Assembly: GCA_951813625.1 (NCBI GenBank) | Contig: CATOTS010000050.1 | Coordinates: 1-64,000 of the forward strand | Source: an uncultured Caldilineaceae bacterium | GTDB taxonomy: Bacteria; Chloroflexota; Anaerolineae; Caldilineales; Caldilineaceae | Length of the DNA: 64,000 nucleotides | Direction: 5' to 3' | Shown: positions 9,646 to 29,766 of the stretch, piece by piece | Numbering within the stretch: position 1 is the stretch's first letter | Layout of the letters: each line of letters opens with the position of its first letter | Made by a program: the position numbers and the translations under genes | The notes under the pieces: generated by a model | What the model was told of the DNA's origin: nothing | The model's input: only the letters and a program-made list of their open reading frames with translations | The model's database searches: none

Positions 9646-10209
9646 TCATTCACTTTGCGAGGGTATGCCGAAGACTCTGATATCGCGCCAAGCTACCCAG
9701 CTGGGACTGTCACGCGTCAGGACCAGCGCCTGTTCGATCTCGCGCGGCGGAAGAATTGGCAGTTCGAGGGTCTGTCCGTCTTCGGTGAAGATGTCGGCGA
9801 AGCGGGTGTGAAACGTCCAGACGCCCGATCCGTTTTCGAGCCAAATTTCGTGGGTCGTTGGGCCGGCAGGGGCCTGGGTGACAACCAGCTCCATTCTATC
9901 GACCGTGTAGGTGTCGTCCAGGAGCACTTGGATCCAATGTGACGGGGCGCCGCCGGCGCTCCACATTGTTTCCTCGTCGCCGTCGAATGCCAAGTGGGCA
10001 AGTTCGTTGTGGTTGGAAGCGCGTGCGGCGCCTGATGGGGCGACATTCGGACTCGATTCCGGCGCTGGCGCTGCCACCGCCTGCATTTCGGCGAGGCGCT
10101 GTGTGAGAATGGAATCAGCAGTTAGTGAAAAGGGGCGGGGGGTGAGTGTACAGGCCGCGACAGCGAACAGGCCTACCAGGCTGATTGTCAATAATCTGAT
10201 AATTCTCAT
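9646..10209 (-). CDS. Lipoprotein with discoidin (F5/8 type C)-like domain
   Basis: This 187-residue protein has a clear lipoprotein signal: MRIIRLLTISLVGLFAVAAC with lipobox VAAC and lipidated C20. After a Ser/Ala/Pro-rich linker, residues about 65-185 read as an F5/8 C beta-sandwich: ASNHNELAHLAFDGDEETMWSAG, SHWIQVLLDDTYTVDRMELV and the final WVAWRDIRVFG. Such domains bind carbohydrate or surface ligands, so a cell-surface glycan-binding role is likely. It is on the same strand as the envelope glycosyltransferase run and may be its last gene, after a 213-nt gap in which I see nothing specific. Confidence 0.82.
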   Translation of the reverse strand: MRIIRLLTISLVGLFAVAACTLTPRPFSLTADSILTQRLAEMQAVAAPAPESSPNVAPSGAARASNHNELAHLAFDGDEETMWSAGGAPSHWIQVLLDDTYTVDRMELVVTQAPAGPTTHEIWLENGSGVWTFHTRFADIFTEDGQTLELPILPPREIEQALVLTRDSPSWVAWRDIRVFGIPSQSE

Positions 10210-10422: not shown

Positions 10423-12306
10423 TCACGACTGCAGGTGGTACACGATGAAACGCGGCCGCGGGGCGTCGTCTATGATTGTCTCGCCGCCGGGATAGAGGTC
10501 CTTAAGGCGGTTGATCTCTTCAGCATAAGCCCCGACGAGCAGGTAGGTGACCGGCCCTTCGTGGACCTTTTCGAGGTCAAATGTACCGAATTCGCGCGAG
10601 CGATCCATCCCCTGACTACGGGGGTGAAGAAAGCGGACGCTTTCATAGTTAAAGCTCCATCTGCCCGAGTAGAAATAGATCGTGCCCGGGTTTTGAAACG
10701 AGTGTGCAGCTGCCAGGGCGTCGACGTGATCGGGGACGAAGGCAAATCTGACGGTCGGACTTTGCGCCAGCTCACCAAAATAGTATCTCACGTTCCAAAC
10801 GCTGCTGACGATCAGTGTTAAGGCGACGCCTGCCAATGCGACATTGCGGCCTTCTATCCCAAATTTGCGTTTGACAAGACCGACGATAGCGGTGGCGCCA
10901 ATCGCGGCCAGTCCGATAATAAATGGGAGAGCCGCGATGCTGCGCCTCAAGGTCCCGGACTCGGGAAGGGCAAAGACCTGCGCCAGCATAGCCAGGATCA
11001 CAACCAGTGCGGCGAGCAGGTAGGGCGGGCTTCTCCACTTCCTGATCGACAAGGCAAGCCCGAGGTAGGCCAGCGCCGCGATTCCCAGGTCAAGCGGGCT
11101 TGCGCCGCCGGAGCCGTCGACGCCATCCGACTTCAGCTTCCTGGCGAGGATGGTCAATGACTCCCATACGCGCGTGGCGAAGAAGTAGGCCTTGTCCGCG
11201 GCATCTCCGGCCTGCGGGTACTGGTTCGAGCGGAAGACTGACGCCATGCTCGTGCGGTGCATGTAGACATCCCAGTTGTCCGACAGGAAGAGGAGGAAGG
11301 GAGTCGAGACAATCAGCGTCCCTAACGCGTAGAAAGCCAAATAGACAAGAGTGTCTGCGATCCTATCTCGCCTGAGAAAGAGGAAGACCGCGAGAGTCCC
11401 GGCAACAGCGGCGAAGAAGGCGGGGAAAGCGAGGTAAGTGTAGGGTACGAGACCCAAAACGGCACCTGCAGCCAGCCAGCGCGAGTGACTCTGCGTGCGC
11501 ATCGCCCACAAGAGGGCTGCACCGGCGGCTGCGGCAACAAGAGAAAGCGCCACCAGTTGATAGCCCATGCGGCTGAAGTGCAGGTGCCAGTAGCTAACCG
11601 TCAGGACGGAGGCCCCTATCAGGGCGACCCAGCGCCCGAAGCCCAGTCGGAGGAGCAGATGGGTTGCGGGGACAGCGGCGATCCCGAAGAGCGCCATTGA
11701 CAAACGAACGGAGAAGATGGAGGCGTCGAGGAGCCAGACAGTGAGAGCAGTCAGGTAGATGGGCCCGGTCATGTTTCCCAGCGCACCGGGCGTGTAAACG
11801 CCAATCCAGCCATCATTGAGGATGCGCAGGGCGTCCATCCCGTTCCAGGCTTCATCCCCATTGAATCCGTCTGGTATGTCGACTAAGCGGTAGATTCGCA
11901 AAAAGGCTGCAAGCACGGTCAGGAGAAGGACTGCGAGCAGCTCCCAGCGGTTGCGCCGCGTCCACGTGCGCAGGAAGGCCCTGTTCCACTGCCATTGCGG
12001 CGCGGGGGTGTCCCAGAAAACGCCGATTGCCCGGGGTTTCCGGCGCGCTCCTGATTTCGCATGGGATCCAGGAACAGCGGTCGCGGGGCGGGTTGCTCTG
12101 GCGGGGCGGCTGACACTCGGTTGCGGAGATTCCGGCGGCGCGGGCTCCCCGAGGGGACCGCCGCAGTCGTCGCAGAATTGAAAGGCGCCATGATTTTTGG
12201 CGTTGCACGCGGGGCAGGTGCGTGACAGCGGAAGGCCACAAGAACCACAGAAGTCGGCCGTATCACGATTGCGGTATTCGCAGTTGAAACAGAGGGTAAA
12301 CTGCAT
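10423..12306 (-). CDS. Zinc-ribbon GT39 (PMT/ArnT-type) membrane glycosyltransferase, copy 1
   Basis: This is a 627-residue polytopic protein. The N-terminus carries two treble-clef/zinc-ribbon pairs (C6-C9/C20-C23 and C31-C34/C45-C48), followed by a basic Pro/Arg-rich linker. TM1 (about 122-138) is followed by RIYRLVDIPDGFNGDEAW, where D151-E152 matches the first-loop acidic motif of GT-C enzymes such as protein mannosyltransferase and ArnT. About 11-12 hydrophobic helices follow. An extracytoplasmic C-terminal domain (about 500-627) contains NPGTIYFYSGRWSFNYESVR. GT39 enzymes transfer sugar from a polyprenyl-phosphate donor on the outer face of the membrane. The protein is clearly paralogous to the next gene upstream (12371-14296). 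Acceptor unknown. Confidence 0.82.
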   Translation of the reverse strand: MQFTLCFNCEYRNRDTADFCGSCGLPLSRTCPACNAKNHGAFQFCDDCGGPLGEPAPPESPQPSVSRPARATRPATAVPGSHAKSGARRKPRAIGVFWDTPAPQWQWNRAFLRTWTRRNRWELLAVLLLTVLAAFLRIYRLVDIPDGFNGDEAWNGMDALRILNDGWIGVYTPGALGNMTGPIYLTALTVWLLDASIFSVRLSMALFGIAAVPATHLLLRLGFGRWVALIGASVLTVSYWHLHFSRMGYQLVALSLVAAAAGAALLWAMRTQSHSRWLAAGAVLGLVPYTYLAFPAFFAAVAGTLAVFLFLRRDRIADTLVYLAFYALGTLIVSTPFLLFLSDNWDVYMHRTSMASVFRSNQYPQAGDAADKAYFFATRVWESLTILARKLKSDGVDGSGGASPLDLGIAALAYLGLALSIRKWRSPPYLLAALVVILAMLAQVFALPESGTLRRSIAALPFIIGLAAIGATAIVGLVKRKFGIEGRNVALAGVALTLIVSSVWNVRYYFGELAQSPTVRFAFVPDHVDALAAAHSFQNPGTIYFYSGRWSFNYESVRFLHPRSQGMDRSREFGTFDLEKVHEGPVTYLLVGAYAEEINRLKDLYPGGETIIDDAPRPRFIVYHLQS

Positions 12307-12370
12307 CGCGGCTTTCTGAATTGCAGGTTGGTCTCAGCGTGAAAGCCAACCCAGGTGGTGGCGAACTCGG

Positions 12371-14296
12371 TCAGGAGTTGAGGTGATAGACGATGAAGCG
12401 GGGGCGAGGATCGCTATCGACGATGACGTCGCCGCCGGGATATAGTTGCTGGAGCCGGTCAATTTCCTGGGCATAGTGCCCTATCAGCACATAGGTAACA
12501 GGGCCGTCATCCACTTTTGTGAGGTCAAAGGTGCCAAACTCCTCCGAACGGTCGGTTCCGGGACTATCAGGGTAAAGGAAACGAATCGATTCATAGTCGA
12601 AGGCCCAACGACTTGAATAGAAATAGATGGTGCCCGGGTCGTCGAAGGCGTGGGCCGATTCCAGGGCTTTGACGTGGTCCGGGGCGAAGGCCCAATCCAA
12701 CTGGCGGCTTTGCGCCAGTTCATCGAAGTAGTATTGCAGGTTCCAGAAGGAGCCGGCAATCAGAACAAGAGTGAGGGTACCGACGGCGGCAAACCGTCCG
12801 CTTTGTCCGAAGGCGGCGCGAATGACGTTGACGATGCTGACGACCCCGACCCCAGCCAGCCCGAACACCCAGGGGATGGCGGTGATGCTGCGCCTCAACG
12901 TGCCAGTGGAGGGGTCGGTTACGATCAGTACGGACAGGGCGCCGAGGACCGCGAGCAGGGCCAGAAGATAGGGAGGGCTGCGCCACTTCCAGACTGAGAC
13001 GGCAAGCCCGACGTATGCGAGGATTGCGATTCCCATATCTACTGCGCCTTTGCCGCCGGAACCGTCGGTTCCGTCGACCCTCGGGTTGCGCATGAATAGC
13101 GTCAGGGAGTCCCATGTGCGCTGCGCGAGAAAACTGGCTTGCTCGGAAAGCGCCTCGTCTTGTGGAAACTCGTGCGAGCGGAAAACCCACACTTGACCCA
13201 TGCGTCCCGTTTGTACGGTCGGCGAGGAAACAGTTGTGGAAATGACCGGGATCAGCACGACAAACAGACCGATTGAAAAGAGGGCAAGCGATAGCAGAGT
13301 GGGTTTCAATTGGTCCCTCTGTAGAAAGAGGTAGACTGCCAGGACAGCGAGTGTGGCGATAAAGAAGCTGGGATAGGCGAAGTAGGTGTATGGGGCAAGG
13401 CCCAGCAGGCCTCCCGCAACCGGCCATGCGAGGCGACTGCGTGAACGCATCGCAATGATAAGAGCGGCCGCGGCCACTGTGCAGGCAAAGGGCAGAGCGA
13501 CCACGGGAAAAGTAACTCTGCTCATATGCAGGTGCCAGTGACTTACTGCCAGCGCGGCTGTGGCGAATGACGCGGCCAAGCGACCGAAGCCAATCCTGAA
13601 CAACAGGTAAGTCACGGGAATGGTAGCGATACCGAAGATTGCCATAGAAAGGCGGACCGTAAAGATGGAAGCGTCAAGGAACAGAAGGAGCAGTGCTGTG
13701 ACGTAAAAGGTGCCGGCCGCCTGTCCCAGTGCGCTGCCGCTGTGGATGCCGATCCACCCTTCCTGCAGGATGCGTTGCGCCTCCAGCCCGCTCCAGGCTT
13801 CGTCGCCGTGGAAACCGGAAGGATAGTCGGCCAATCGGTAGATGCGCAGGAAGGCGGCGATTGCGGTGAGCACGATGACCGCCAATAGTTCCCAGCGGTA
13901 GCGGAAGGCCCACTCTTTCAGAAAGGGCACCGACCAGCGCCATTCGATCGCGGGCGAGTCCCAGGTTACGCCGAGCGGCCGCAGGTGGGCGGAAACCCAT
14001 GAGAAGTCAGCTTTGGGCAGGCTGAAGGAGCCACGGAGATTGGGCTTAGTCGAGGTTATGGAGGGTTGGGCGCGGTTGGAAACGGAGGAGGAGGAGGTTG
14101 CAGGAAGGGCGGTCCCGCAGGCATCACAGAACGTGAGGCTGCGGGGGTTTTCTGCGCTGCACTTGGGGCATACGGCAGCCATGCGCAGACCGCAGTGCCC
14201 ACAGAATGTGGCTTCTGCGCGATTCGGCTGTTCGCAGGCGGCACAGCGCTGTAACTCTTGAACTGCGCCGTCTGCAACAAGTTCACCTGGAGGCAT
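12371..14296 (-). CDS. Zinc-ribbon GT39 membrane glycosyltransferase, copy 2
   Basis: This 641-residue paralogue has the same architecture as the gene at 10423. Two zinc ribbons (C18-C21/C32-C35, C43-C46/C57-C60) and a Ser/Pro linker precede TM1 (about 136-152). The acidic GT-C motif is D165-E166 in GFHGDEAWSGLEA, followed by many TM helices and the same C-terminal module (DPGTIYFYSSRWAFDYESIR, GPVTYVLIGHYAQEI, RPRFIVYHL). The two copies are 64 nt apart and look like an old tandem duplication. The N-terminus should be cytosolic, placing the zinc ribbons opposite the catalytic loop. Confidence 0.82.
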   Translation of the reverse strand: MPPGELVADGAVQELQRCAACEQPNRAEATFCGHCGLRMAAVCPKCSAENPRSLTFCDACGTALPATSSSSVSNRAQPSITSTKPNLRGSFSLPKADFSWVSAHLRPLGVTWDSPAIEWRWSVPFLKEWAFRYRWELLAVIVLTAIAAFLRIYRLADYPSGFHGDEAWSGLEAQRILQEGWIGIHSGSALGQAAGTFYVTALLLLFLDASIFTVRLSMAIFGIATIPVTYLLFRIGFGRLAASFATAALAVSHWHLHMSRVTFPVVALPFACTVAAAALIIAMRSRSRLAWPVAGGLLGLAPYTYFAYPSFFIATLAVLAVYLFLQRDQLKPTLLSLALFSIGLFVVLIPVISTTVSSPTVQTGRMGQVWVFRSHEFPQDEALSEQASFLAQRTWDSLTLFMRNPRVDGTDGSGGKGAVDMGIAILAYVGLAVSVWKWRSPPYLLALLAVLGALSVLIVTDPSTGTLRRSITAIPWVFGLAGVGVVSIVNVIRAAFGQSGRFAAVGTLTLVLIAGSFWNLQYYFDELAQSRQLDWAFAPDHVKALESAHAFDDPGTIYFYSSRWAFDYESIRFLYPDSPGTDRSEEFGTFDLTKVDDGPVTYVLIGHYAQEIDRLQQLYPGGDVIVDSDPRPRFIVYHLNS

Positions 14297-14311
14297 TGCC
14301 GGAAATGTTCC

Positions 14312-17300
14312 TTATCCGCTTCCGAAGATGAGAATGCGATTGTTGTCGGCGTCGACGACAAGGATTTCGCCGGTCAAGGGGTCGATGGCGATGCCGGTCG
14401 GCTTGGCGAAACGATTGAGTTCGCTGCCGTACCTGCCGAAGCTGGCGCGCACGATGCCGTCGGCGGAGATCACGAAGACCTGGGCGAACTGTGGATCGGT
14501 GGCGTAGACCGTGCCGTCGCCTGCTGCGGCCAGATAGGGCTTGTCCCAGACGAGATCGCTATCCCAGGTGGGCATTGGCCACTCGGAGAGCGCTTGCAGG
14601 TCGGAGGACAGGACCTGGATGCGGCGGTTCCAGGCATCGCTGACGAGGACCAGGCCGGTTGTTGGGTGAACGGCGACATCGACGGGTTCGTCGAAGTACC
14701 CGAGCAGGATGCCGCCGCCACCGACCTGCCGTACGAACTCCCCGGTGGGGGTAAACTCAAGAATGCGCTTGTTTCCGGTGTCGGCGACAAGCAGATTGCC
14801 AGACGGGTGGATTGCCAGGCCGCGCGGCCCGAAGAGGACGAAGGGGTCGGCGTTCTCGCCGCTGACCGTGCCGAAAAAGCCCCACTTGCGCAGGAAGTTG
14901 CCCGTGCTGTCGAAGGCCTGAATGCGCCCGTTCCAAGTATCGGAGACGAAAATCGTGCCGTCGGCCGCGACGGCAATGCCCCACGGTTCGCGGAATTGGC
15001 CGTCGCCCGTTTCCAGAGGGCCGGCGCCATCCGGATCGAGGCAGCCGGTGCCGACTTCGTCGGAGAGGAAGCAGGTGCTACCGAAAGCGAGGGCAAGCGA
15101 GCCGTCGGCGTTGAGGACGATCACGCGATTGTTGCCGGTATCCAGGATATAGCGGCGGGAATCGGGTCCCACGGTGATTGCCCGCGGGGCGGTCAACGGC
15201 ACGCCGGCGAATTCGCCGCTGTAAAGGCCGCTGGCGGTGCGTTCGATCTCCGAGTAGGTGAAGGTTGGGTCGATGCCTGCCGTGGGGACGACATCGAGAT
15301 CCCAGACGAGATTTGCGATGTCCTTGCGAACGTACATACGAAACTCTTCGACGTGGGGCCATGCCGTTAGCGAGCGGTCAGGGTGGTTGCGGTAGAAGAA
15401 GATCTGCCAAAGTCGATTGCGGCGCTCCGGATCGGTCAATGCGTTCCAGATTTTCACAAAGTCCAACCCGCGATGTTGCTGCTGGTCGCCGTCCCACTCG
15501 CCCTTGTAGCTCTCTTCGGGCCACCAGATGAGACGGTAGGAACGGCTGACGTAGTCTCGCGCCACGTATGGTTCCACCTTGGCGTAATTCTTGTCGCCGA
15601 CGAGGATAATGGGCGCTTCCATAGAGTCGCCGGAAGGGTTGGCGCCGTAGAAGAGGGCGTTGGGGTAGAAGCGCATGTACCAGGTCATCGGCCATGCTAC
15701 GTCATCGTCGTAGGCGACCTGAATCTCACGTTCTCCGACCGTACGCTCGCTGATTTTTTCAATCTCTTCCAGCGCGACTTTCACATCAGGGGAGGCGTGC
15801 GCGTAGACCAGATACTCGGTCGCCATATCGTAGTTCAGGTAGGTAAGCAGATAGGAGAAACGTATTGTGAGGAGAAACAGGAGCGCAGCCGTCACGACTG
15901 CGGTCAGACGGAGCATCTGCCGCCAGCCATAGCGTACGAAAGCGACTACGACCAACGCAATCACTGCGACGCTGGCGACAAGCACTGGGACGAAGCGGGC
16001 GGTCTGCGCCAGGGCATCGAGTTCGCGTCCGCCTTCGGGGAAGGAGCTGAACAACGTAGCGACGATAAACAGAAGTGCGGGCAGCAGCGCGAATACCCAC
16101 CAGCCGTTCGTTTTTCGCAACTCTTCCCAATTGATTCGCCGTACCATACTGGCGCACCACCACGCGCCAATCAACGCCATCGGCTGGGCCATGTGGGTCA
16201 TCAGCCAGGGCATCTTTTCGCCGGCGTAGGAGTAGGCCAGCCAGGCCGCCACCATCCACCAGGCGAAAAAGGCAATGACGTACGGCCGGACCAGAACACT
16301 CGGCTGGGCGGCTCCGGTCGCGCTTGCAGGTGTGGTAGAGACGGGCTCCTCCAAAGAGGAAGACTGCTCGTCTTCCTCCTCTTCCTCCTCGACCGCTTTC
16401 ACCTTACGCCACTTGCGGGCCGCAATCCGCCAAGCGAGCAGTGAAAGGGCGCCCAGGCTGAGAAAGAGGGGGAGAATTTCGTACAGCAGCGATTGGAGCA
16501 GGTAGTAGTACCAGGGCTGGCTGCCGCGCTGCACTTCCTGCTGTGCCAGCCAGTAGCCGAGGCTGCCGACGACGCCGGTCGCCAGTCCATTTACGGCGTT
16601 GGTAAAGAAGGTTGTGAACAGCACTATCTCGATGGCCCAAAACAGTCCCATCAGGGCGGCCCAGTTTCCGAATGTGAGGCTTCGCTCCTGTCCAATCTCA
16701 GCGGCTGGCGCGTCATTCTTGTTGTTGTTCTTAAGGATGATGAACCAGAACATCGCGATCATCACGCTGACCGCGGACATCAGCAGGACGAAAATCGCCG
16801 ATTTTGCCAAGTCCTCGGTGGTCGAGTAGGCGAGCGCGTCCCACCCAAGGAGCAGGTGCCCGAACGGCGCGGTGAAGGGAAGCACGAGGGTAAGGAATAG
16901 GACTGCCAGATCGGAATAGGGGCTGAGGCGGACCGGCTCGCGGGCGCGAAAACGGCGCCAGAGCGCGGCTGCGATCAGGAAGGCGCCGAAAATCGCGCCG
17001 GACATGAATTGGTTCTCTTTGGTTGCGAATCCGAGCGCCATTGCAGCGACGGTCAAATAGAGCCATTTCATCCTGCGATCTTCGACGAAGCGAAAAATGC
17101 CGTACACCCAAATCATCGCGATCAGAACGATGTAGATGTCGTTGCGAATGTAGCGGCTGTGGAAGAGGAGGCTGGGGCTGATGAGCAGCATCAAGCCGGC
17201 GAACAGCGCGCCGAGTCGTCCGAGCCAGCGCCGGTAGAACCAGGCCATGCCGATCGCGGCAATACCGGCCAAGGCGGGCATGACGCGTGATGTGGCGTCA

Positions 17301-17659
17301 CTAGCGCCGAACAGATAGTAGATGAGAGCGTTGGCGTGGAACAGGAAGGGCCCGTGCATCATCGGGTTGTGTTGATAGCTGCCGCTGCGGTAGAGTTCGT
17401 GCGAGTAGACGGCGTGCAGGCTCTCGTCGTGGCTCATGCCGCGCGCCCCGAGTTCGTAGAAACGAGTTACGACGGCCAGAATCAGGATGGCTGCCCACGC
17501 GACCACCTCCCAGTCGAGGCGCCAGGACTGAATGATGCTGCTGTCGAGCAGCACCGAGGGCGCGCTCTGCTTCGCATCAGCAGATTGGTGTCCTTCCGCA
17601 ACGGAAGGCGCCTCGTCGGCGTTCAGCGCCCGGCCTTCCGCTCTTTCTTCATCAGCCAT
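14312..17659 (-). CDS. Agl23-like (TIGR03663) GT-C membrane protein fused to an NHL beta-propeller
   Basis: This is an 1115-residue protein. Residues about 50-600 are a polytopic GT-C domain of the 'flippase activity-associated protein Agl23' type. Signature stretches are RFYELGARGMSHDESLHAVYS (acidic motif D78-E79) and HNPMMHGPFLFHANALIYYLFG. A Glu/Lys-rich loop with a run of eight acidic residues interrupts the membrane part. A soluble domain (about 620-800) follows, then about six NHL repeats (801-1115) with repeated D-T-G/W-N-N/G-R-I core motifs (ILDTGNNRVIVL, VSDTWNGRIQAF, VADTGNKRILEF, VSDAWNRRIQVL, VVDADNNRILIF). Agl23 takes part in archaeal protein N-glycosylation; the bacterial role is unproven. 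The upstream gene ends 3 nt before this ATG. Confidence 0.85.
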   Translation of the reverse strand: MADEERAEGRALNADEAPSVAEGHQSADAKQSAPSVLLDSSIIQSWRLDWEVVAWAAILILAVVTRFYELGARGMSHDESLHAVYSHELYRSGSYQHNPMMHGPFLFHANALIYYLFGASDATSRVMPALAGIAAIGMAWFYRRWLGRLGALFAGLMLLISPSLLFHSRYIRNDIYIVLIAMIWVYGIFRFVEDRRMKWLYLTVAAMALGFATKENQFMSGAIFGAFLIAAALWRRFRAREPVRLSPYSDLAVLFLTLVLPFTAPFGHLLLGWDALAYSTTEDLAKSAIFVLLMSAVSVMIAMFWFIILKNNNKNDAPAAEIGQERSLTFGNWAALMGLFWAIEIVLFTTFFTNAVNGLATGVVGSLGYWLAQQEVQRGSQPWYYYLLQSLLYEILPLFLSLGALSLLAWRIAARKWRKVKAVEEEEEEDEQSSSLEEPVSTTPASATGAAQPSVLVRPYVIAFFAWWMVAAWLAYSYAGEKMPWLMTHMAQPMALIGAWWCASMVRRINWEELRKTNGWWVFALLPALLFIVATLFSSFPEGGRELDALAQTARFVPVLVASVAVIALVVVAFVRYGWRQMLRLTAVVTAALLFLLTIRFSYLLTYLNYDMATEYLVYAHASPDVKVALEEIEKISERTVGEREIQVAYDDDVAWPMTWYMRFYPNALFYGANPSGDSMEAPIILVGDKNYAKVEPYVARDYVSRSYRLIWWPEESYKGEWDGDQQQHRGLDFVKIWNALTDPERRNRLWQIFFYRNHPDRSLTAWPHVEEFRMYVRKDIANLVWDLDVVPTAGIDPTFTYSEIERTASGLYSGEFAGVPLTAPRAITVGPDSRRYILDTGNNRVIVLNADGSLALAFGSTCFLSDEVGTGCLDPDGAGPLETGDGQFREPWGIAVAADGTIFVSDTWNGRIQAFDSTGNFLRKWGFFGTVSGENADPFVLFGPRGLAIHPSGNLLVADTGNKRILEFTPTGEFVRQVGGGGILLGYFDEPVDVAVHPTTGLVLVSDAWNRRIQVLSSDLQALSEWPMPTWDSDLVWDKPYLAAAGDGTVYATDPQFAQVFVISADGIVRASFGRYGSELNRFAKPTGIAIDPLTGEILVVDADNNRILIFGSG

Positions 17660-17662
17660 CGT

Positions 17663-19612
17663 CTACTCCCGTCTTACCCAAAGTTCGGCTTCTTCCAGGG
17701 TGGATTCGTCCCCAGAAACTTGCCCCCTCTCTCGCAAGAGAATCCATCTCAAGCGGGGGCCGACACCGACCAGGTCTGTCGGCAGCCAGCGTTGAACAAC
17801 TGCATAACTGCTGCCAATATAGCCGCTGGGCAGGTTGAGCCGCTCACCTTCGCTGCCGGCGCCAGGCTGGCTCACTACCAAAGCATCAACTTCCAATTCT
17901 CTCATCTGGGAACCAGGTTGCCAACGCAGAACGCGCATAGAGCGCAAATGCCAGGCGAAGAACGGCAGATGACTGGGTTTCACGTGCAGGTAGACCGGAA
18001 TGGCCGTATTCTTGCCCGCGCGCAGAAAGCTGAGGCGTGTGACATCCTCCGCCAACAGAGCGATACCATCGTTTCCCACTTCGGCAAAGAGGCTGTGTAC
18101 CTGACTCGCTTCCGGGCGCAGATTCATCTTCCAACTACTGCTCGCCTGTACCAGAAAGATAGCCCCAAGAAACAGCAAACCGAATGCCTGCCCCCCCACT
18201 CGGGCGCCTGCCCACATTAAGAGAAACAGGCCCAGTGCCGGGATTAGCAGATAGAAAGCGGTCAAACGCCAGTCAAAGCTGCCATTTCGCAACGATTCGG
18301 TCAAAATGCCTGTCCAGAAGTATGACGTAACAAGCAGGATACCCATGGTCGCGAGGGTCAGCAAACCGGCTTCGTTCTTGTACAGCCCTCGGGTCAGCCC
18401 AAAGCGGAGGATCGTCGTTGCCGTTCCTGCAGCCAGCAGCGTCAAGGGAAGGCCGAGGACGAGCAAACTGACGGGCGATCGGCCGGGCAAAAGTACCAGC
18501 ATCAACGCCCAGCCGACACCAGCAGCCAAGACACGCAACCATTTCGTCCGGGTAGAATTCGGTGAAGGGACATTCGCATTCAGGATATGCTCGCTTTGAT
18601 CCTCATCCCTTCCATTGGATGACCAGTTTATCTGCGCCAGCGAGATGAACAGCCCGATTCCGCCAAAGAGAATCAAGAACGGTTCGTCTACAAGTAGGCT
18701 GAGCAAGGCCCAATTCAACGGGTAGTCTTGCAGCGCGTGAAGAAGTGGAGCAGCTTCGGAACCGCCGAACAGGTGCTCGATGGCGAGGCCGACGCTTTCG
18801 CCGATGAGGGACAGGCCAGAGAAATGGGCGAAGAAACCGGTTGCACCTAAGACGATCGTCCCCAAGAAAATAGCTGCCGTTCGACTCCGCATTCCTTCCT
18901 CAAACAGATAGCGAGTGTTGTCGTATCTCAGCATAAGCGCGAACAATATTGTCGGCAGCAACAACCATGCCAACGGCCCGCTGATCAGGAATAGCCCGGC
19001 GGCGGCAGGCAGCCAGGTTGCTCTGCTTCCCGCATCACTGTCGTCGAACAGCCACCCCAGCAGCGGTACGGCCGTCAAGAGCGAGAGTGTGGCGCTGTCT
19101 GCCATGCGACTGAAGGAGAGCAGCCAGGGGTCGAAGGCGAAGAGGAAGGCGGCCATCAAGGCTCCCCCTCGCCCCATGCTGCTGCGGAGCGTCCATGCGG
19201 CCAATACGAGTCCCGCGCCTGCGGCGGCGGGCACGAGGCGTGCCCAAAAGGCGTTGCCCCCGCCCGTCAGAAAAAAGAGCCCGCGTTGGAGCGAAAAGAG
19301 CAGCGGGCTCACCGGTGCGCCCTGATCGGGGAGCTGGCTCGTTTCAAGCAGACCGTAAGAATGGGCCAGCCAGGCGGGCCAGATCTGCGCCGCTTCCCAG
19401 GGTGAAATCGGTTCCGAAATGCCAAGACCGTAAAGACGAAGGCTCAGCGCAAACAGGAACAGGAGCGCGTACAGTGCTTGCTCTACGGTGGGCCCGCTTC
19501 CGACGGCAGCGGAGAAGACCGCGGGTAGCTTTTCCTTTGCCGGTCGTTCGTCCTCCGATTCTGGTTTTTGAGCGTTAGGTGTTTCAGTCGAATTCTCTTC
19601 TGACACCGGCAA
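17663..19612 (-). CDS. Polytopic GT-C-like membrane protein
   Basis: This is a 649-residue protein with an acidic cytosolic tail (1-45) and about 12 hydrophobic helices. The first TM is followed by LYGLGISEPISPWEAAQIW, which aligns with the R-x-Y-x-L...DE region of the neighbouring GT39/Agl23 proteins but keeps only one acidic residue (E73), so catalysis is uncertain. The C-terminal 120 residues are soluble. The best start is the TTG at 19612 behind AAGGA at 8 nt; no ATG is nearby, and a GTG two codons later has worse spacing. It ends 3 nt before the Agl23-like gene, so the two are surely co-transcribed. Confidence 0.72.
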   Translation of the reverse strand: MPVSEENSTETPNAQKPESEDERPAKEKLPAVFSAAVGSGPTVEQALYALLFLFALSLRLYGLGISEPISPWEAAQIWPAWLAHSYGLLETSQLPDQGAPVSPLLFSLQRGLFFLTGGGNAFWARLVPAAAGAGLVLAAWTLRSSMGRGGALMAAFLFAFDPWLLSFSRMADSATLSLLTAVPLLGWLFDDSDAGSRATWLPAAAGLFLISGPLAWLLLPTILFALMLRYDNTRYLFEEGMRSRTAAIFLGTIVLGATGFFAHFSGLSLIGESVGLAIEHLFGGSEAAPLLHALQDYPLNWALLSLLVDEPFLILFGGIGLFISLAQINWSSNGRDEDQSEHILNANVPSPNSTRTKWLRVLAAGVGWALMLVLLPGRSPVSLLVLGLPLTLLAAGTATTILRFGLTRGLYKNEAGLLTLATMGILLVTSYFWTGILTESLRNGSFDWRLTAFYLLIPALGLFLLMWAGARVGGQAFGLLFLGAIFLVQASSSWKMNLRPEASQVHSLFAEVGNDGIALLAEDVTRLSFLRAGKNTAIPVYLHVKPSHLPFFAWHLRSMRVLRWQPGSQMRELEVDALVVSQPGAGSEGERLNLPSGYIGSSYAVVQRWLPTDLVGVGPRLRWILLRERGQVSGDESTLEEAELWVRRE

Positions 19613-19704
19613 CCTATGATTCCTTGCTTACCGTACCTGTTGTTGGTTTTGCGGTCAGTCGCGTTTGTTCCTGACGCGCGAATGGCTGCGGTTGATAGAG
19701 GCCG

Positions 19705-22422: not shown

Positions 22423-22969
22423 TTCGGGTGTCCCTGTTCCCGCGGGCGGCAGCTTGCGCACAATTGGGGAGGGGGCGCTTCCCAACTTCCGACAGTGATT
22501 CCGGCCTGGCGCTCAGGGCCTGCTCGACTACCTTCTTGTGGAACCGCTCCATAGGGGGTAACTCGTGTTGGGAAAACAGGCGGGCTTCAAGAATCTCAAC
22601 CGGGTCGATCGCCAGTTGACCGCCGTCGATCCGGCCGAGCAGAAAGAACTCCAGGGTGCGGGAGGTGGACCGATGGCAGACAATGTCTTCGATAACGACC
22701 TCAAGCGCCAGCTCTTCGCGAACCTCGCGTCGCCAGCAGGCAAATATGGTTTCGCCGGGGGCCAGCCAACCGCCGGGCATGCCCCAGATTCCAGCCTGGT
22801 GGAAGCGATGGCGCAGCAGCAACACTTGCTGGGAGTCGGTCAAGAGTACGCCGCTAACACCGACAATGACTTTGCCGTTGATTGCCCAGGTAACCGCGGT
22901 GCGAACCGGTGACGGCGAATTGCGCCAAATGCGGGCCAGAAGGGGAACGACGTTTGCCATCAGTCTCAT
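22415..22969 (-). CDS. NUDIX hydrolase
   Basis: This is a NUDIX pyrophosphatase of about 184 residues. The box reads G-W-L-A-P-G-E-x7-REVREELAL, so it matches Gx5Ex7REUxEE but has Ala where the terminal Gly is usual. GIWGMPGGWL and the following VVIEDIVCHRSTSRTLEFFLLG fit ADP-ribose or nucleotide-sugar type NUDIX enzymes. The ATG at 22969 has GAGGG upstream; a GTG at 22987, overlapping the previous stop as GTGA, is an alternative. The gene is overlapped at both ends by membrane glycosyltransferase-type genes, suggesting a linked role such as trimming a sugar-nucleotide or polyprenyl-linked intermediate (inference). Confidence 0.85.
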   Translation of the reverse strand: MRLMANVVPLLARIWRNSPSPVRTAVTWAINGKVIVGVSGVLLTDSQQVLLLRHRFHQAGIWGMPGGWLAPGETIFACWRREVREELALEVVIEDIVCHRSTSRTLEFFLLGRIDGGQLAIDPVEILEARLFSQHELPPMERFHKKVVEQALSARPESLSEVGKRPLPNCAQAAARGNRDTRNA

Positions 22970-22983
22970 AATTACTTCTGCCC

Positions 22984-25900
22984 TCACCGGCCCGATGAAG
23001 CTGCTGGCGGCTGAGAAGGCACGGCGTAAATCGTCACCTTCTGATTCTGGAAGACAGTCTCCAAAAGGCCACTTGCTTTCAGTTGCTCCAGCCTTGCGGG
23101 CGCGGCCGGGTGTTGATGGCGCTCCAATTGCCCGACGTAGATGAGGTCGATGTCCAGCTCTCTGATGATTTCTTCGATGCGACCGATTTCGTTCGTTTTC
23201 CAGAATTCGCTGAGTTTGCCGTGGCGTGCGCCTACGTCTTGTGCGAAGCGCTGCTCACCTGCGTGCATGCCCAGCAGTCCGCTCAGGCCTGTGAGGCTGG
23301 CTACGCGCGTGCCACCGGCCCTGTAGTAGTCGATCTGCGCCGACTCGGCAACAACTGCGTTGCCGGGCACATTCTCCAGAATCCAGCGGATCGCCTCCCA
23401 ATCGTAGCGCAGTTCGATGGCGTTGTCGCCATCGGGCCATCGATAGACCCCGTTTTCCATGAATGCCATTCCGTCCAGGGTTCCGACCGGAGGCCGCCAG
23501 CCAGGGAACCGTTGTGCCGAGCGTGAGGGTGTGCCCCATAGCGGGAAGGCCAGGCTGGCGGCAAGGAGGAGGGCGAAGGCGACGCTCCAGATGCGTCCGG
23601 CCGGCGCCAGAGGAACTTTGATCGGCCACACGGATTCTCTCCGTGCCGGAGGCTCCATGACTGTTGCGGCATGAGACTCTCTCCTTTGCGCTGCTGTGAG
23701 CCGGGCAAGGATCCTGGGCAGTACTATCGCTGCCGCGACGCCCCACAGGACCCAAACCTGGCTGAAGAATTTGAAGAGGGTATTCATGCGATAGGCGTTG
23801 CCGCCCTGAAGGAAATCCTTCAGATAGACCAATTGCGTTCCAGCCAGAACGGCCAGGCCAACCGAAGTCAGCAAGGCAGCAATGACCGTTCCGGTATCGG
23901 ATACGCGGCCCCGCCGCAGGAGCAGGGGAAGCGAGATACCCAAGGCCGGCAGGCAGATGGCAAGTATGACCTGGTCGCTGAATACCAGGAGCAGGGCTGA
24001 GGCAAGGAAAAGGATCGGGCTGAGCACCGTCCCGGTAAAGTAGACCGGCGTACCTTTGCGCACCAGCAGCCTGTGCAAGCTGAGGAAGCGGAGTCTGCTC
24101 GATTCGCTGCGCCCAAACAGCAGCCAGGAGAAGAGGACAAAGGCGAAGAATCCCCAGATTTGGGTCCAGTGCCCCAGTTCGTCCGGCGCCCGCACGAGCC
24201 CGATGCCGCCGGCGGCCACATTCGTGTAGCTGCGAAAGAACGGCAGGAACAGCAAGTAGGCGCCCGCCAGCTGGACTGCGCCCAGCACAATGACACGCCC
24301 CAGGAGTAGCCGGCCTCGTTTGAGGTGCAGTGTCACCGCCAGCACCAGGACCCCGAGGCCAAAGTAGGTGGGCAGCTCCCACAGGTTGACAGCGGTCAGC
24401 ACTCCCAGCGTGAAGGAGAAGCCGCCGAGGAGGAGCGTGAAGTAAGGCCAGTGCCGCCTCCAGTCCAGTTTGAAGCTGTTGAGGAGCGCCAACGCCAGTG
24501 CGACGAAAAGGAGCGAAAAGGGGATGCCGATCATGTGCGGGTGCAGGTCGGCGTAGGTGAAGCTCCAGTAAGGAAACTCGTTAATTGTTTCGGGAATGAC
24601 ACGGCTCGGCGCCCAGAAATCATAGTTCGGCAGCGGGGCGCCGGTCGTCACGGTTCCCCATAGTCCGCTGACGGCGCGAAGCGGAGTTTCTGCGGCAGGA
24701 ATGCCGAAGTCAAACTGACTGTGGCTGGCCCTGCTCAGCGAAAGCAGGAGCTGTTTGAAGCCGGCCAGGTTGCCGAGAACGGCTACGAAGAGCGGCGCCA
24801 GCAGGGCCGTGGCGATACCTTCGTACCAGGGGCTAAGCCGTGCGTTGGCGGAGCCTGAGTTTGGTGGCGGGTCGTCGGACGGCGTCTGCGAACGGTGATC
24901 CGGCTCCTCGGTAGCGCCGGTCTGAGCATACTCGGGGATAGGGGCGGGTCCAGCGTAGAGCGCGGCCTCGCCTTCAAACAGGAGCGGGTCGGGCAGGTCC
25001 CGTGTCTCGTCCCATTTTTCTGTTGACGGCGGCTCCGACTCGCTGTCGAACGTGTCAGCGAGTCCTTCCTGCGACAGCCGTGAAAGGGCAGGAGGATCCG
25101 ACTGTTCAGGAATCACGGCGGGATTGGGATCGGTGTCTGATTCCTGGGGGCGGAGAGGGGGATCTTCTGATCGCGACAGGTTCTCTCCGGGCCGTCGCCG
25201 CGCGGAAACCGAGTAGGCCACGGCGAAGGCGTTGAGCACGGTAAGAGCGAAGAGCGTGGGAATCGCCAGATTGAACGCGACCTCAGCGTAGATACCGGTC
25301 AGCTTGACCAGGTAGCCGACCAGGTAGATGCCGTAGTAGTAGTAGTTGATGTAGCCGCCGGCAAAGTGCGGGTCGACCGGCGGGAATGTGGGGCTGCGCA
25401 GAATGCCGTTGAGGAAGGCGAATTCCATGAATTTTTCGCCGCCGAACCAGGGTTGCCACAGGTCGGGGTTGGCCCTGCGGACGAGGACGAAGAAGACGAA
25501 GGCGGCCGCGAAAAGCGCTTCGCCAACCAACAGAATGCCCCACATTCGGCGGACGAAGGAAAAGACGCGACGCCAGTTCCGAGCCAACACGGCCGCGTTG
25601 ATGAGGGCCACGAGCGCTGCGGCCAGCCATGCATTTCGTACGGTGTTGTGCACGAGGTCAAGGCTGGCGAACAGCCAGAGCAGCCAGCCGCACAGCAGCC
25701 AGCCGAGCGTCTTGGCGAGCAGATAGCCGCGATCGCGCAGGGCGCGGAAGAGGAGGAAAGACAGGGGCCAGGCGGTCCAACCAAGTAGCGAGACTACCAG
25801 CCACCACCAGGCGACGGCAAGCCAGGTGTTTTGGCTGGCAGCCTGGTTCCACCTGTAGTTGTCGACCAGCGGAAGCTGATCCAGGGGCGTTTCCAACAGC

Positions 25901-28035
25901 AAGGAAGGCTGTCCGTCTCCCTCCTGGCGCGCGGGTGGTTGTCGTTCTCCTGAGGGGATTTCCTTACCTTGGAGCAGCGAAAATACAATGTTGACCAGGC
26001 CGCGTTGCTCGTTTTCGGGCGCGCTGCCCAACCCCAATGCGTTTAGCAGGGGTGACAGGGGCGGGTCTTCTCCGCGATGCCAAGGGATTGCCTCTTCCCA
26101 GGAGCCGAACAGGAGCGCATCGTATTCGGCTTCGTTGAGCTCAGATTGCTTGGCGAAGATCGACACACGCGGATGATCATAGAGGCTCCAACTCTCGTCG
26201 GCCTCGTGGTCGGGAAAGGTTAATCCCAGCAGTTGCGGGGGCGAAGTAAAGTCGGCGGCGTGGACGAAGCCCAGACGTTCGCCGAACATCAGCTCGTAGT
26301 AGAGAATCGTCATCGGGTAGCGCTGCGGCAGCTCATCGACGCTCTCATAGATGCGCTTGGAGCTGTAGATGACGTAGTCGGCTTCCTGCAGCTTCTGCCG
26401 CAGAATGGCGTACTTTTCCTCAGTGTCTTCCTCGTAGGGCGACCAGTCGATGTGACGCAACCCATGGCTGCCCATATCCATGCCTGGTTCACCGGGTATG
26501 CTCTTGGGCAAGGGGTCGTCCCATGATTCCCAGAGTATGACTGAACCGGGCGAGGCGTTGGCGTAGACCCAGCGGCTGGCCGTGATCCAGGTGTGCTCGC
26601 GCGCATAGACGCCGTTGATAAGGGAGAGGGACCAGAATAGAGCGCCTCCGACCGCGATCAGCGCGAGGAGCACGGCCGGCAGTTGGACCGGCAAACGCCG
26701 TCGCCGGCTTTCGCCAAGTTTCCAAAGCCAGATGATCATTCCGGCGGCAAACAGGAGGACGAAGGGGAGGATGGGGCTCATGTAGCGGTTGAACTTGGCC
26801 AGAAAGGCTCCGGTCAGCCCGAAGTAGGGAACGACCCAGGCCCATACAACGAGTTCCCCGAGCCTATACCGGAGCAGGATCGATTTTGCCAGCGCCCAAA
26901 AGCTGCCTGCGAGCGCGATGAGCCCGAGCGGCAGGCCCATGCCCCAAACGACCTGTTGTCGAATGAAGTAGAGATACGGTGTTGTGTTGCGATATTGGCG
27001 AGTGAAGGGAAAGTCGGCAATTCCGCGCACCATGCGGCCCTGTTCGACGAGTGTGGCCTGGATGAAACTTTGCCAGTCGAGGATGGCGTAAGGGCTTGTA
27101 ACCAAGAAGGCGATAAAGGCCAGAAGAAGGGCGACCGGTGCGCCGAGGAGCATGCGGCGGGCGCCATTACGATTGGCACTATTACGGTCGGCGTTATCGT
27201 GGTCGGCACTATTGTGGTCGGCACTATTGTGGTTGGCACTATTGTGGTCGGCACTATTGTGGTCGGAAGCAGGCTGCCCGTCAGCCGAGAAGGCTTGTGG
27301 CGTGTCGGCAGACCGCCAGCCTGCGGCCAGGGCGGCCACAATTGGCACGGCAAGGACCGGCAAGGCGCTGAACTTGGCGGAGATGGCCAGCCCTGCGCCG
27401 ATGCCTGCCCAGATTACGCCGCGCCAGGAACGATCCTGGACCATCAGGATGCCGCCGTAGACGGACAGGACGACAAAGGTCGTACTTGAGGGGTCCATCG
27501 CGAAGAAGTGGCTCAGTTGGACAGCCTGGGCAGTGAAAGCGTATAGCGTTGCGGCCAGCAGGGCGGCGGCGTTGCCATAGAGTCTGCGCCCTACGAGGAA
27601 AAGGAGAAGGATGGTGAGCGTATCCAGCAGGGCCATCAAGAGGCGTCCGGCGACGGCAACGCCGTTGCAAGCATGGTTGGCCCGCTGCATGAGGCCGAGG
27701 ATCCGGTCAGATAGCGGGAGGAGCGAGGCCGGCTCTGCCAGGCCGCTCAGCAGCTCACCGGTCAGAATTCCGAGGTAGAGCGGGAAGTGGCCGTAGGTGA
27801 AGGAGCGGCGGCGGTCGTTTTGTCGGTCCCAGAGGGGGTTGAGTGGGCTGCGTCGCGGGTCAAGGAACTCGTCGGACGAGGAGGGCCATTGGATTGAGGG
27901 CGCGTAGAAGCAGGTGGTGCTGCGTTCGTCGGGGTGGGCGTTCAGCCCGCCGTCGAAGTTGACGTTCCAGGTTCGTAAGGTCAACCCGGCCAGCGCCACT
28001 ACGCCGAGAATCAGATATGTTAGGTATGAGCGCAT
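22984..28035 (-). CDS. Giant GT39-like / Chlor_Arch_YYY fusion membrane protein
   Basis: This is a 1683-residue protein made of two GT-C-type halves. The N-terminal half (about 1-700) starts with a TM and NAHPDERSTTCFY (D36-E37, the GT39-like acidic motif) and has about 10 TM helices. It contains a pentapeptide repeat (255-290, S-A-D-H-N type) and an extracytoplasmic domain. The C-terminal half (about 750-1683) is a second YYY unit: GGYINYYYYGIYLVGY (near 895-905), INEFPYWSFTYADLHPH (near 1165) and YRMNTLFKFFSQVW, matching the separate YYY protein at 19705. An Asp/Pro/Ser-rich linker lies near 955-1040. The ATG is at 28035; the next gene upstream on this strand ends 87 nt earlier. The role is likely in envelope glycan assembly, unproven. 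Confidence 0.83.
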   Translation of the reverse strand: MRSYLTYLILGVVALAGLTLRTWNVNFDGGLNAHPDERSTTCFYAPSIQWPSSSDEFLDPRRSPLNPLWDRQNDRRRSFTYGHFPLYLGILTGELLSGLAEPASLLPLSDRILGLMQRANHACNGVAVAGRLLMALLDTLTILLLFLVGRRLYGNAAALLAATLYAFTAQAVQLSHFFAMDPSSTTFVVLSVYGGILMVQDRSWRGVIWAGIGAGLAISAKFSALPVLAVPIVAALAAGWRSADTPQAFSADGQPASDHNSADHNSANHNSADHNSADHDNADRNSANRNGARRMLLGAPVALLLAFIAFLVTSPYAILDWQSFIQATLVEQGRMVRGIADFPFTRQYRNTTPYLYFIRQQVVWGMGLPLGLIALAGSFWALAKSILLRYRLGELVVWAWVVPYFGLTGAFLAKFNRYMSPILPFVLLFAAGMIIWLWKLGESRRRRLPVQLPAVLLALIAVGGALFWSLSLINGVYAREHTWITASRWVYANASPGSVILWESWDDPLPKSIPGEPGMDMGSHGLRHIDWSPYEEDTEEKYAILRQKLQEADYVIYSSKRIYESVDELPQRYPMTILYYELMFGERLGFVHAADFTSPPQLLGLTFPDHEADESWSLYDHPRVSIFAKQSELNEAEYDALLFGSWEEAIPWHRGEDPPLSPLLNALGLGSAPENEQRGLVNIVFSLLQGKEIPSGERQPPARQEGDGQPSLLLETPLDQLPLVDNYRWNQAASQNTWLAVAWWWLVVSLLGWTAWPLSFLLFRALRDRGYLLAKTLGWLLCGWLLWLFASLDLVHNTVRNAWLAAALVALINAAVLARNWRRVFSFVRRMWGILLVGEALFAAAFVFFVLVRRANPDLWQPWFGGEKFMEFAFLNGILRSPTFPPVDPHFAGGYINYYYYGIYLVGYLVKLTGIYAEVAFNLAIPTLFALTVLNAFAVAYSVSARRRPGENLSRSEDPPLRPQESDTDPNPAVIPEQSDPPALSRLSQEGLADTFDSESEPPSTEKWDETRDLPDPLLFEGEAALYAGPAPIPEYAQTGATEEPDHRSQTPSDDPPPNSGSANARLSPWYEGIATALLAPLFVAVLGNLAGFKQLLLSLSRASHSQFDFGIPAAETPLRAVSGLWGTVTTGAPLPNYDFWAPSRVIPETINEFPYWSFTYADLHPHMIGIPFSLLFVALALALLNSFKLDWRRHWPYFTLLLGGFSFTLGVLTAVNLWELPTYFGLGVLVLAVTLHLKRGRLLLGRVIVLGAVQLAGAYLLFLPFFRSYTNVAAGGIGLVRAPDELGHWTQIWGFFAFVLFSWLLFGRSESSRLRFLSLHRLLVRKGTPVYFTGTVLSPILFLASALLLVFSDQVILAICLPALGISLPLLLRRGRVSDTGTVIAALLTSVGLAVLAGTQLVYLKDFLQGGNAYRMNTLFKFFSQVWVLWGVAAAIVLPRILARLTAAQRRESHAATVMEPPARRESVWPIKVPLAPAGRIWSVAFALLLAASLAFPLWGTPSRSAQRFPGWRPPVGTLDGMAFMENGVYRWPDGDNAIELRYDWEAIRWILENVPGNAVVAESAQIDYYRAGGTRVASLTGLSGLLGMHAGEQRFAQDVGARHGKLSEFWKTNEIGRIEEIIRELDIDLIYVGQLERHQHPAAPARLEQLKASGLLETVFQNQKVTIYAVPSQPPAASSGR
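27166..27270. repeat. 15-bp minisatellite encoding S-A-D-H-N repeats
   Basis: Seven tandem 15-nt units on the pattern TATTGTGGTCGGCAC: the central units are nearly identical and the outer ones diverged. On the minus strand they encode SADHN-type pentapeptides in a loop between two TM helices of the 1683-residue protein. The 15-bp period keeps the frame, so copy number can vary without breaking the gene. Confidence 0.85.
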
Positions 28036-28122
28036 CGTGCTCGTTTCTGCTGGGTATCAGGTATTGGGCATTTCACCGACCCAGAACGCAAAACGGAATA
28101 CGCTGTGCGCGATGTAAAACGG

Positions 28123-29766
28123 TCATGGCTCGATCGGCCAGTCTGGCACGACCCAAACGATCTGATGTTCGGGCGGCGGCGGCCACAAAAGGTAGACGTC
28201 AACCCAGCTGCTCCACAGTTCCAGGTTGTGGTCGTCGTAGCCGAGGTCTATGCGCCGGATTTGGATGTTGCCACCGGTATCGAGTGCGTCGCCGATGCCG
28301 TAGCCGGGCACAAATACTTTGGTGCGCAGAGGGATGTACCTGGGATCAACGGCGACAACGCCCTTGCGCATCGGGTCTCCGGTACGGGTGATTCCGTACC
28401 AGGGTACGCTGCGGGGTACACCGGCGGTCGATGCGCTGTAGCTGGTAGCCCGCATGCGGATTGAGCGCCAGTAGACGATTTCCTGTCCATCATCGGTAGT
28501 CAGCGTTTGGGGGACAATCTTCTGGCCGTAGACGATGACCTGGTCACGCGGTTCCTGGGCTACCCAGACGTCTTCGAGCACGCGTTCGACTTCCTCGCCG
28601 TCAACGAAGCGGGTGCGATAGCGCCGCCTGGTGATGCCGTAGGCTCCCGGTTCGACTCTGCGGGTATCGATGAGGAGGTCGCGATCGCCGATCCAGACGG
28701 TCTCAAAAGGAGCGATCTCTTCTTCGAGGTCGATCTCTTCCACGATCCGGACAATGGAGATTTGCATTTCCGGGTAGATGAGCGCGTCGAGCGAAGGCGA
28801 AACTTCGTCCAAACCGGCCAGTCCGATGCCGATTTCAGCGAGCGCATCGCCTACGGTCCGGCTCAGCGTGCGCGTCTTATAGAGGCGACCGTCGGCCAGC
28901 AGACTGATGGGGGTGCTGCGCTGAATGAGCACCCTCATGCCGGTGCTGACAGGCGTTCCAAGGCTCGGCTGGACGTTATCGCCCAGGTAGATGGTAATCT
29001 CGGCGTCGAGCAGGGCTTCGCCGACGGTCTCGGACATCGTATGAATCGTATATGGAATCGAGCCTTCGTCGATCACGAGCAGTGCCGACCGATCGATTTC
29101 GATGCGGAGCGGGTCGTTGCCTATCTGCCCCCAGAGGCTGCCGATGCCGAAGAGGGATGGGTTCAGCTTGGGCGGGGCCCTGGGGATCTCCTGGTCCCAG
29201 CTAGCGAGCTCGCCATTGATGGTTACGCGGTCATAGGAATTGAAAGCGATGCCGGCATCGCGCAGGAGCTCGACAGGCGTTGAGGCCCAACTTGAGATCA
29301 AGGTTTCGCGGCCGTCGGCGTAGATGCGAAAGGGGCGCGGAAGGTCAACCCTTATGCGCATCCCGTTCACGATTTCCGTGTCGAGGCTGTGGGAGATCCG
29401 CACTTCTTCAAGTTGCCCGGTCGAACCCTCGCCGGCGCCATTGCCAGGCCGAAGGAGGCCAAGGGTCGCGACGGTGCCTACCTCCGTCTGCGCGCCTGGC
29501 AGCTCACCCAATTGGTCCAGCGACAGGCCAAGGTCTGTCAGCAGTGCGCCGACAGCCCGACGATGCGTATTGATTGTGAGTGAGTGACCGTCAACCACGA
29601 TCTCAACCGGAGTTGCGGTGAAGTTCCAGAGTGCCCAAAGGCCAACGATAGCGGCCACCACCAGTGACAACCGCACCATCAGCCGAATCTGCCGTCCCTG
29701 CCATCGTCTGACTGGGGGATGGGCGACAGTCACATCAGGTCTTACCCGTCGAGTGACAGTAGCCAT
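28123..29766 (-). CDS. DUF348/G5/3D-domain cell-wall protein
   Basis: This 547-residue protein has one N-terminal TM or uncleaved signal anchor (about 27-47), then several DUF348 (YabE/Rpf-type) repeats (VEIVVDGHSLTINTHRRAVG and further copies near 146, 230 and 290). A G5-like domain (about 375-430; RRYRTRFVDGEEVERVLEDV) follows, then a C-terminal 3D domain (about 437-520) with ALDTGGNIQIRRIDLGYDDH carrying the conserved aspartates. The layout is that of YabE/YocH-like autolysins and resuscitation-type factors that cleave peptidoglycan with an MltA-like fold. It lies upstream of the glycosyltransferase run on the same strand and may head that transcription unit. It also argues for a peptidoglycan wall. 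Confidence 0.87.
   Translation of the reverse strand: MATVTRRVRPDVTVAHPPVRRWQGRQIRLMVRLSLVVAAIVGLWALWNFTATPVEIVVDGHSLTINTHRRAVGALLTDLGLSLDQLGELPGAQTEVGTVATLGLLRPGNGAGEGSTGQLEEVRISHSLDTEIVNGMRIRVDLPRPFRIYADGRETLISSWASTPVELLRDAGIAFNSYDRVTINGELASWDQEIPRAPPKLNPSLFGIGSLWGQIGNDPLRIEIDRSALLVIDEGSIPYTIHTMSETVGEALLDAEITIYLGDNVQPSLGTPVSTGMRVLIQRSTPISLLADGRLYKTRTLSRTVGDALAEIGIGLAGLDEVSPSLDALIYPEMQISIVRIVEEIDLEEEIAPFETVWIGDRDLLIDTRRVEPGAYGITRRRYRTRFVDGEEVERVLEDVWVAQEPRDQVIVYGQKIVPQTLTTDDGQEIVYWRSIRMRATSYSASTAGVPRSVPWYGITRTGDPMRKGVVAVDPRYIPLRTKVFVPGYGIGDALDTGGNIQIRRIDLGYDDHNLELWSSWVDVYLLWPPPPEHQIVWVVPDWPIEP

Follow-up and report, generated by a model that had tools for sequence, protein, structure and literature searches.

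A conserved gene block in a Caldilineaceae bacterium encoding predicted GT-C membrane proteins of a putative polyprenyl-phosphate-dependent glycosylation system

Multi-component transmembrane glycosylation systems that combine a GT-A glycosyltransferase, a flippase, and a GT-C glycosyltransferase have been described, including CsbB/GtcA/YfhO, GtlA/GtcA/GtlB, and others (PMC8035078), and the archaeal Agl pathways (PMC3871713), such as AglD/AglR/AglS in Haloferax and Agl22/Agl23 in Haloarcula, provide a further precedent. Agl23 of Haloarcula hispanica is a putative flippase, which in yeast suppresses deletion of rft1 and in liposomes translocates M5GN2-PP-dolichol (PMC11182771). Here we analysed a stretch of 64,000 nucleotides (the window; contig CATOTS010000050.1 of assembly GCA_951813625.1) from an uncultured Caldilineaceae bacterium of the Chloroflexota, in which eight genes, all on the minus strand at 10423-29766, encode in transcription order a 3D-domain protein, a fusion of a GT39-type and a YYY (DUF2298) domain, a NUDIX hydrolase, a YYY protein, an Agl23 paralogue, Agl23 with an NHL beta-propeller, and two zinc-ribbon GT39-like paralogues. 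Considering the structure matches, the conserved candidate acids in Agl23, the fusion N-terminal half and YYY, the co-occurrence and order of the genes, and the glycan-type neighbours, we propose (with a probability of roughly 0.6) that the locus encodes an extracytoplasmic, polyprenyl-phosphate-dependent glycosylation system similar to the Gram-positive multi-component systems and the archaeal Agl pathways.

Like the multi-component systems, the locus encodes GT-C membrane proteins, often of the PMT_2 type, that have a DxD-like motif in one of the outer loops and would act outside the cell on polyprenyl-phosphate sugars. It differs from them in that seven GT-C modules in six proteins are gathered in one gene block and belong to other GT-C families, and in that no GT-A charging enzyme or GtrA flippase was found beside it, although no search was aimed at GT2. 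The Agl23 family is held in common with the archaeal Agl pathways (by NCBIfam family name only in the case of the window protein and H. hispanica Agl23), but this locus is bacterial, lies in a genome with no match to STT3 (PF02516), and contrasts with the flippase-like function published for archaeal Agl23.

Agl23 (14312-17659, minus strand; TIGR03663 267.9 bits against a cut-off of 126.25, NHL 100.7 bits) is the sole TIGR03663 protein above cut-off in the genome. Its AlphaFold model has a predicted local distance difference test score (pLDDT) of 84.3 and a predicted template modelling score (pTM) of 0.76, and residues 47-788 align with ArnT (5ezm) at Z 28.1 and a root-mean-square deviation (rmsd) of 3.8 over 433 residues, a match that takes in the outer C-terminal domain, so that an ArnT-like GT-C fold is predicted. 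Residues 804-1112 match NHL propellers (Z 40.2). Given that the aligned part reaches the end of the outer C-terminal domain of ArnT and that the propeller comes next, the propeller probably sits outside the cell. Unlike ArnT, Agl23 has this extra propeller, and no PDB entry matches its membrane part by sequence at E<=1; matches in a plasmid search with Agl23 were restricted to the propeller part. H77, D78, and H102-G103-P104 are invariant in 32/32 sequences and E79 is found in 31 of them. The adjacent gene (17663-19612, minus strand; 649 amino acids), which had been described as a further GT-C-like protein, hits no Pfam family and scores 46.1 bits for TIGR03663, below cut-off, but hhalign identifies it as a paralogue of Agl23 (E=2.8e-50). 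Its catalytic Asp has been lost: in its family Glu73 is present in 43/43 sequences and the preceding Asp in three. Since the Asp is missing although Glu73 is kept, this protein appears unlikely to work as a normal transferase.

The YYY protein (19705-22485, minus strand; 926 amino acids) scores 394 bits for DUF2298 and 470 bits for TIGR03662, above cut-off, and its nearest relatives come from Caldilineaceae metagenome-assembled genomes (MAGs; 56-60% identity). In an alignment of 72 sequences, E161, M164, an acid (Asp or Glu) at 165, D182, E410, and D420-x-H422-P-H424 are invariant, as are Y192 and Y193 of the YYY motif, whose third residue, Y194, is found in 65; the acid of the first outer loop lies in an M[D/E] motif. 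All five Foldseek matches with E<=0.001 to the AlphaFold model built from these sequences (pLDDT 89.2, pTM 0.91) are GT-C enzymes, namely DPY19 (three entries), AglB, and AftA. VIA-align matched it to Stt3 (8agb, Z 15.3), ArnT (5f15, Z 12.7), and AftA (8if8, Z 12.6, rmsd 5.0 over 483), and residues 783-919 to the C-terminal domain of AglB-S2 (3vu0, Z 10.9, rmsd 2.7 A over 115 residues). Only GT-C proteins, the GT-C-like subunit of glycosylphosphatidylinositol transamidase, and oligosaccharyltransferase domains score above Z 8, and the first unrelated row stands at Z 5.5. YYY is therefore predicted to have a GT-C fold, for which the oligosaccharyltransferase-like C-terminal domain and the uniform rows above Z 8 are the stronger points; DUF2298 may already be placed among the GT-C families in Pfam. 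The overall predicted fold, and above all the C-terminal domain, resembles STT3/AglB/PglB; unlike these, YYY shows no detectable sequence similarity to oligosaccharyltransferases in the PDB, either as a whole or in its C-terminal domain, and the WWDYG motif is absent from the aligned C-terminal domain. Profile comparison likewise found no homology between YYY and Agl23, and weak PDB matches of YYY, such as triosephosphate isomerase, were judged to be due to chance.

The fusion (22984-28035, minus strand; 1683 amino acids) joins an N-terminal PMT_2-type GT-C half (51.8 bits, over cut-off) to a YYY part (DUF2298 379 bits, TIGR03662 480 bits); DUF2298 occurs at no other place in the genome than these two genes of the locus. 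The Asp and Glu of its HPDE motif are kept in 64/64 ungapped aligned sequences, and in the YYY part M-[D/E] is found in 63/65 and D-x-H-P-H in 65/65. The two GT39-like proteins (paralogue a, 10423-12306; paralogue b, 12371-14296; both minus strand, 51% identity) carry a double zinc ribbon at the N-terminus (DZR 36.3 and 37.7 bits, over cut-off) and DE in the first outer loop, whose Asp is kept in 35/37 aligned sequences. The ribbons thus bear out the earlier description of zinc-ribbon GT39 paralogues, but PMT_2 scores of 24.0 and 23.3 bits fall just under the Pfam cut-off of 26.1, and ribbons were found in only three of 36 GT39-like relatives, all close ones.

The YYY alignment was scanned against the GTDB genome collection, which gave 80 loci picked regardless of their neighbours; the sequence reaches 6 kb or more beyond YYY on its downstream side in 51 of them and on its upstream side in 46. 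In 41/51 loci, YYY is followed on its own strand within 7 kb by an Agl23-type gene, with an NHL propeller in 31, and upstream the GT39-YYY fusion is found in 36/46, the 3D gene in 13, and the NUDIX gene in six. In many families, the fusion is followed in turn by YYY, the Asp-less paralogue, and Agl23-NHL, and the conserved unit is these four genes plus, often, a GT39-type gene. At one locus (L077:19080-22787) a GT39-type protein is fused to PA14 and an NHL propeller, and NHL-bearing proteins of similar length come after Agl23 at three others (L085, L086, and L088). In some lineages (L046, L047, and L061) the fusion contains two YYY domains and Agl23 is elsewhere; at the first of these, a restriction-modification-like pair (NotI-type and N4/N6 DNA methylase; L046:7927-9815) lies between the fusion and YYY. 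Considering the domain scores and the gene order conserved in other genomes, a chance origin of the block can be excluded, and coordinates and Pfam/NCBIfam scores agree with the same-strand block of about 19 kb and the domains named in the first-pass annotation. Flippase-like membrane proteins (PF03706) are neighbours at 11/40 other Chloroflexota loci and UDP-sugar dehydrogenase at five, with GT4 and methyltransferase genes at others; the genome under study has two PF03706 copies outside the locus.

Strong matches were also counted in 151 Chloroflexota genomes, with no phylogenetic correction of the co-occurrence test. Both Agl23 and YYY were matched in 96 of them, only Agl23 in two, only YYY in three, and neither in 50, a near-perfect association; DUF2298 is present in 23/23 high-quality Caldilineaceae genomes. 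The co-occurrence of TIGR03662 and TIGR03663, often as neighbours, is presumably noted in the TIGRFAM descriptions already. Both DUF2298 and TIGR03663 match the control genomes of Haloferax volcanii and Methanosarcina acetivorans, consistent with the earlier statement that the families are shared by Chloroflexota and Archaea; however, DUF2298 is also found in Bacillota, on plasmid pNP95 of the rumen bacterium Pseudobutyrivibrio xylanivorans (L152), within a polysaccharide cluster of GT2, O-antigen ligase, and nucleotide-sugar genes. The suggestion of one pathway is thereby partly supported, for the core, whose order is kept and whose members co-occur, but less so for the NUDIX and 3D genes at their low frequencies. 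Because the families co-occur and the Agl23 and YYY models are GT-C folds, the main expectations of the first-pass annotation were not refuted.

Under the proposed glycosylation system, sugars would be loaded onto polyprenyl phosphate on the cytoplasmic side and then flipped by the products of genes located elsewhere. On the outer side, Agl23, the two zinc-ribbon GT39-like proteins, and the fusion N-terminal half, all four of which have a DE motif (with the fold predicted by a model for Agl23), would act as ArnT/PMT-type GT-C transferases using polyprenyl-phosphate sugars. Both as a separate protein and as part of the fusion, the YYY domain may be a further GT-C module whose AglB/STT3-like C-terminal domain probably recognises the acceptor, while the NHL propeller, following the ArnT-like outer domain, would probably keep the acceptor close to the membrane. 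The Agl23 paralogue without the Asp probably serves as an accessory partner, not as an independent enzyme. We infer the donor and acceptor, as well as the roles given to the propeller and this paralogue; protein, wall, and lipid are all candidate acceptors, and none is singled out by the data. It might even be that DUF2298/YYY constitutes a GT-C transferase class of its own, with a C-terminal domain like that of oligosaccharyltransferases, and forms with Agl23 a general protein-glycosylation system that is common to Chloroflexota and some Archaea and replaces STT3 in Chloroflexota, but we consider this doubtful, if slightly less so than the alternatives discussed below.

Several points weigh against the proposed system. 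The Foldseek template modelling (TM) scores of YYY to its GT-C matches are modest (0.24-0.36 to the query), and common helix arrangements can give membrane proteins high Z-scores. We found no biochemical data for any bacterial member of these families, which agrees with the earlier remark that Agl23 and YYY have no known function in bacteria, although archaeal work exists and assigns a flippase role to H. hispanica Agl23 (PMC11182771). In addition, neither a GT2 charging enzyme nor a flippase was found in the annotated part of the window, no search having been aimed at GT2.

Among the alternatives, a membrane lipid as the acceptor, as with ArnT or PimE, would lead to a decorated glycolipid. 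ArnT, a lipid A modifier, is indeed the closest fold to Agl23, but a C-terminal propeller and an oligosaccharyltransferase-like C-terminal domain are unusual among enzymes with lipid acceptors, and we regard this explanation as unlikely. Somewhat less likely again is that the system builds or decorates a peptidoglycan-anchored glycopolymer, comparable to teichoic-acid glycosylation. Gram-positive GT-C systems do decorate wall polymers (PMC8035078), and a gene resembling wall hydrolases adjoins the cluster in the 13 loci with the 3D gene; however, YYY is not associated with mraY (63 genomes with both, 36 with YYY only, 35 with mraY only, 17 with neither; odds ratio 0.85, p 0.72), and mraY is without a match in three of the genomes with YYY. 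A tie to peptidoglycan synthesis was accordingly rejected. We give marginally less weight still to the possibility that Agl23, and perhaps YYY, are mainly flippases or scramblases of polyprenyl-linked sugars instead of transferases. This would fit the rft1 suppression and liposome translocation of H. hispanica Agl23, but the Agl23 model resembles ArnT along 433 residues, and the DE and HGP motifs, (near-)invariant in 32 homologues, would be expected of a transferase and have no obvious use in a flippase. The predicted GT-C fold does not obviously fit the published flippase label; either both roles reside in one protein, or one of the assignments is incomplete, and this discrepancy between a flippase by name in archaea and a predicted ArnT-like transferase here poses a sharp question. 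That the genes are mere neighbours with no common pathway is very improbable, because the order is kept in most loci and co-occurrence is near-perfect even where genes are unlinked, although Agl23 is distant from YYY in Chloroflexia and some Anaerolineae (in 84 genomes listing both, 41 have them within 15 kb, six on one contig but at a large distance, and 37 on separate contigs, many of these being fragmented assemblies).

A tie to STT3 N-glycosylation was rejected, considering that STT3 is missing from the Caldilineaceae genome and that the only genome of the phylum sample with near full-length STT3 (G082) lacks YYY, other matches being weak and partial. With its three STT3 matches of almost full length and six to archaellin, and lacking both mraY and YYY, that bacterium carries a surface set of archaeal type. 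Archaella were also considered as a general substrate. In Litorilinea aerophila, a cultivated member of Caldilineales, unassigned densities on two archaellin threonines have been read as probable O-glycans (PMC12488501). However, archaellin is found in 4/151 genomes, none with a strong YYY match, and is absent from the Caldilineaceae genome under study; it is therefore not the general substrate of the system. Considering that L. aerophila has been cultivated and that a Litorilinea MAG has the locus (L085), an organism for experimental tests exists. Chloroflexota envelopes are unusual and multilayered, with a glycan chemistry that is almost unknown; the core module, which occurs in roughly two thirds of the genomes sampled as well as in some archaea and shows no dependence on mraY, in a set of genomes that all but lacks STT3, points towards a major and so far unexplored route of surface glycosylation.

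With regard to the remaining genes of the cluster, the 3D gene (28123-29766, minus strand) encodes one N-terminal transmembrane segment, DUF348 (four stretches), G5, and 3D domains by Pfam; this order is that of YabE/Rpf2-type wall hydrolases, unlike which it adjoins a GT-C fusion. The NUDIX hydrolase (22415-22987, minus strand; 190 amino acids, 56.8 bits) lies between the fusion and YYY in six loci, all from close relatives, and, like the zinc ribbons, is lineage-specific. In transcription order, the 3D gene and the fusion are 87 nucleotides apart and the fusion and NUDIX genes overlap by 4; NUDIX and YYY overlap by 8 nucleotides from the conserved Met22 (position 22422), the probable translation start, or by 71 from the listed TTG, and the spacings after YYY are 92, 3, 15, and 64 nucleotides. 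A zinc-ribbon and NHL-propeller protein encoded on the opposite strand (32575-33978, plus strand) may be part of the system, since its homologues are located just upstream of the cluster on the same strand in two other loci (L033 and L044). Just downstream of the cluster, 9646-10209 encodes a small protein that resembles a lipoprotein and contains an F5/8 type C (galactose-binding-like) domain. Two sulfatase-family genes on the strand of the cluster (7926-9539 and 30144-31625) flank the locus, one at each end, which leaves room for a sulfated glycan.

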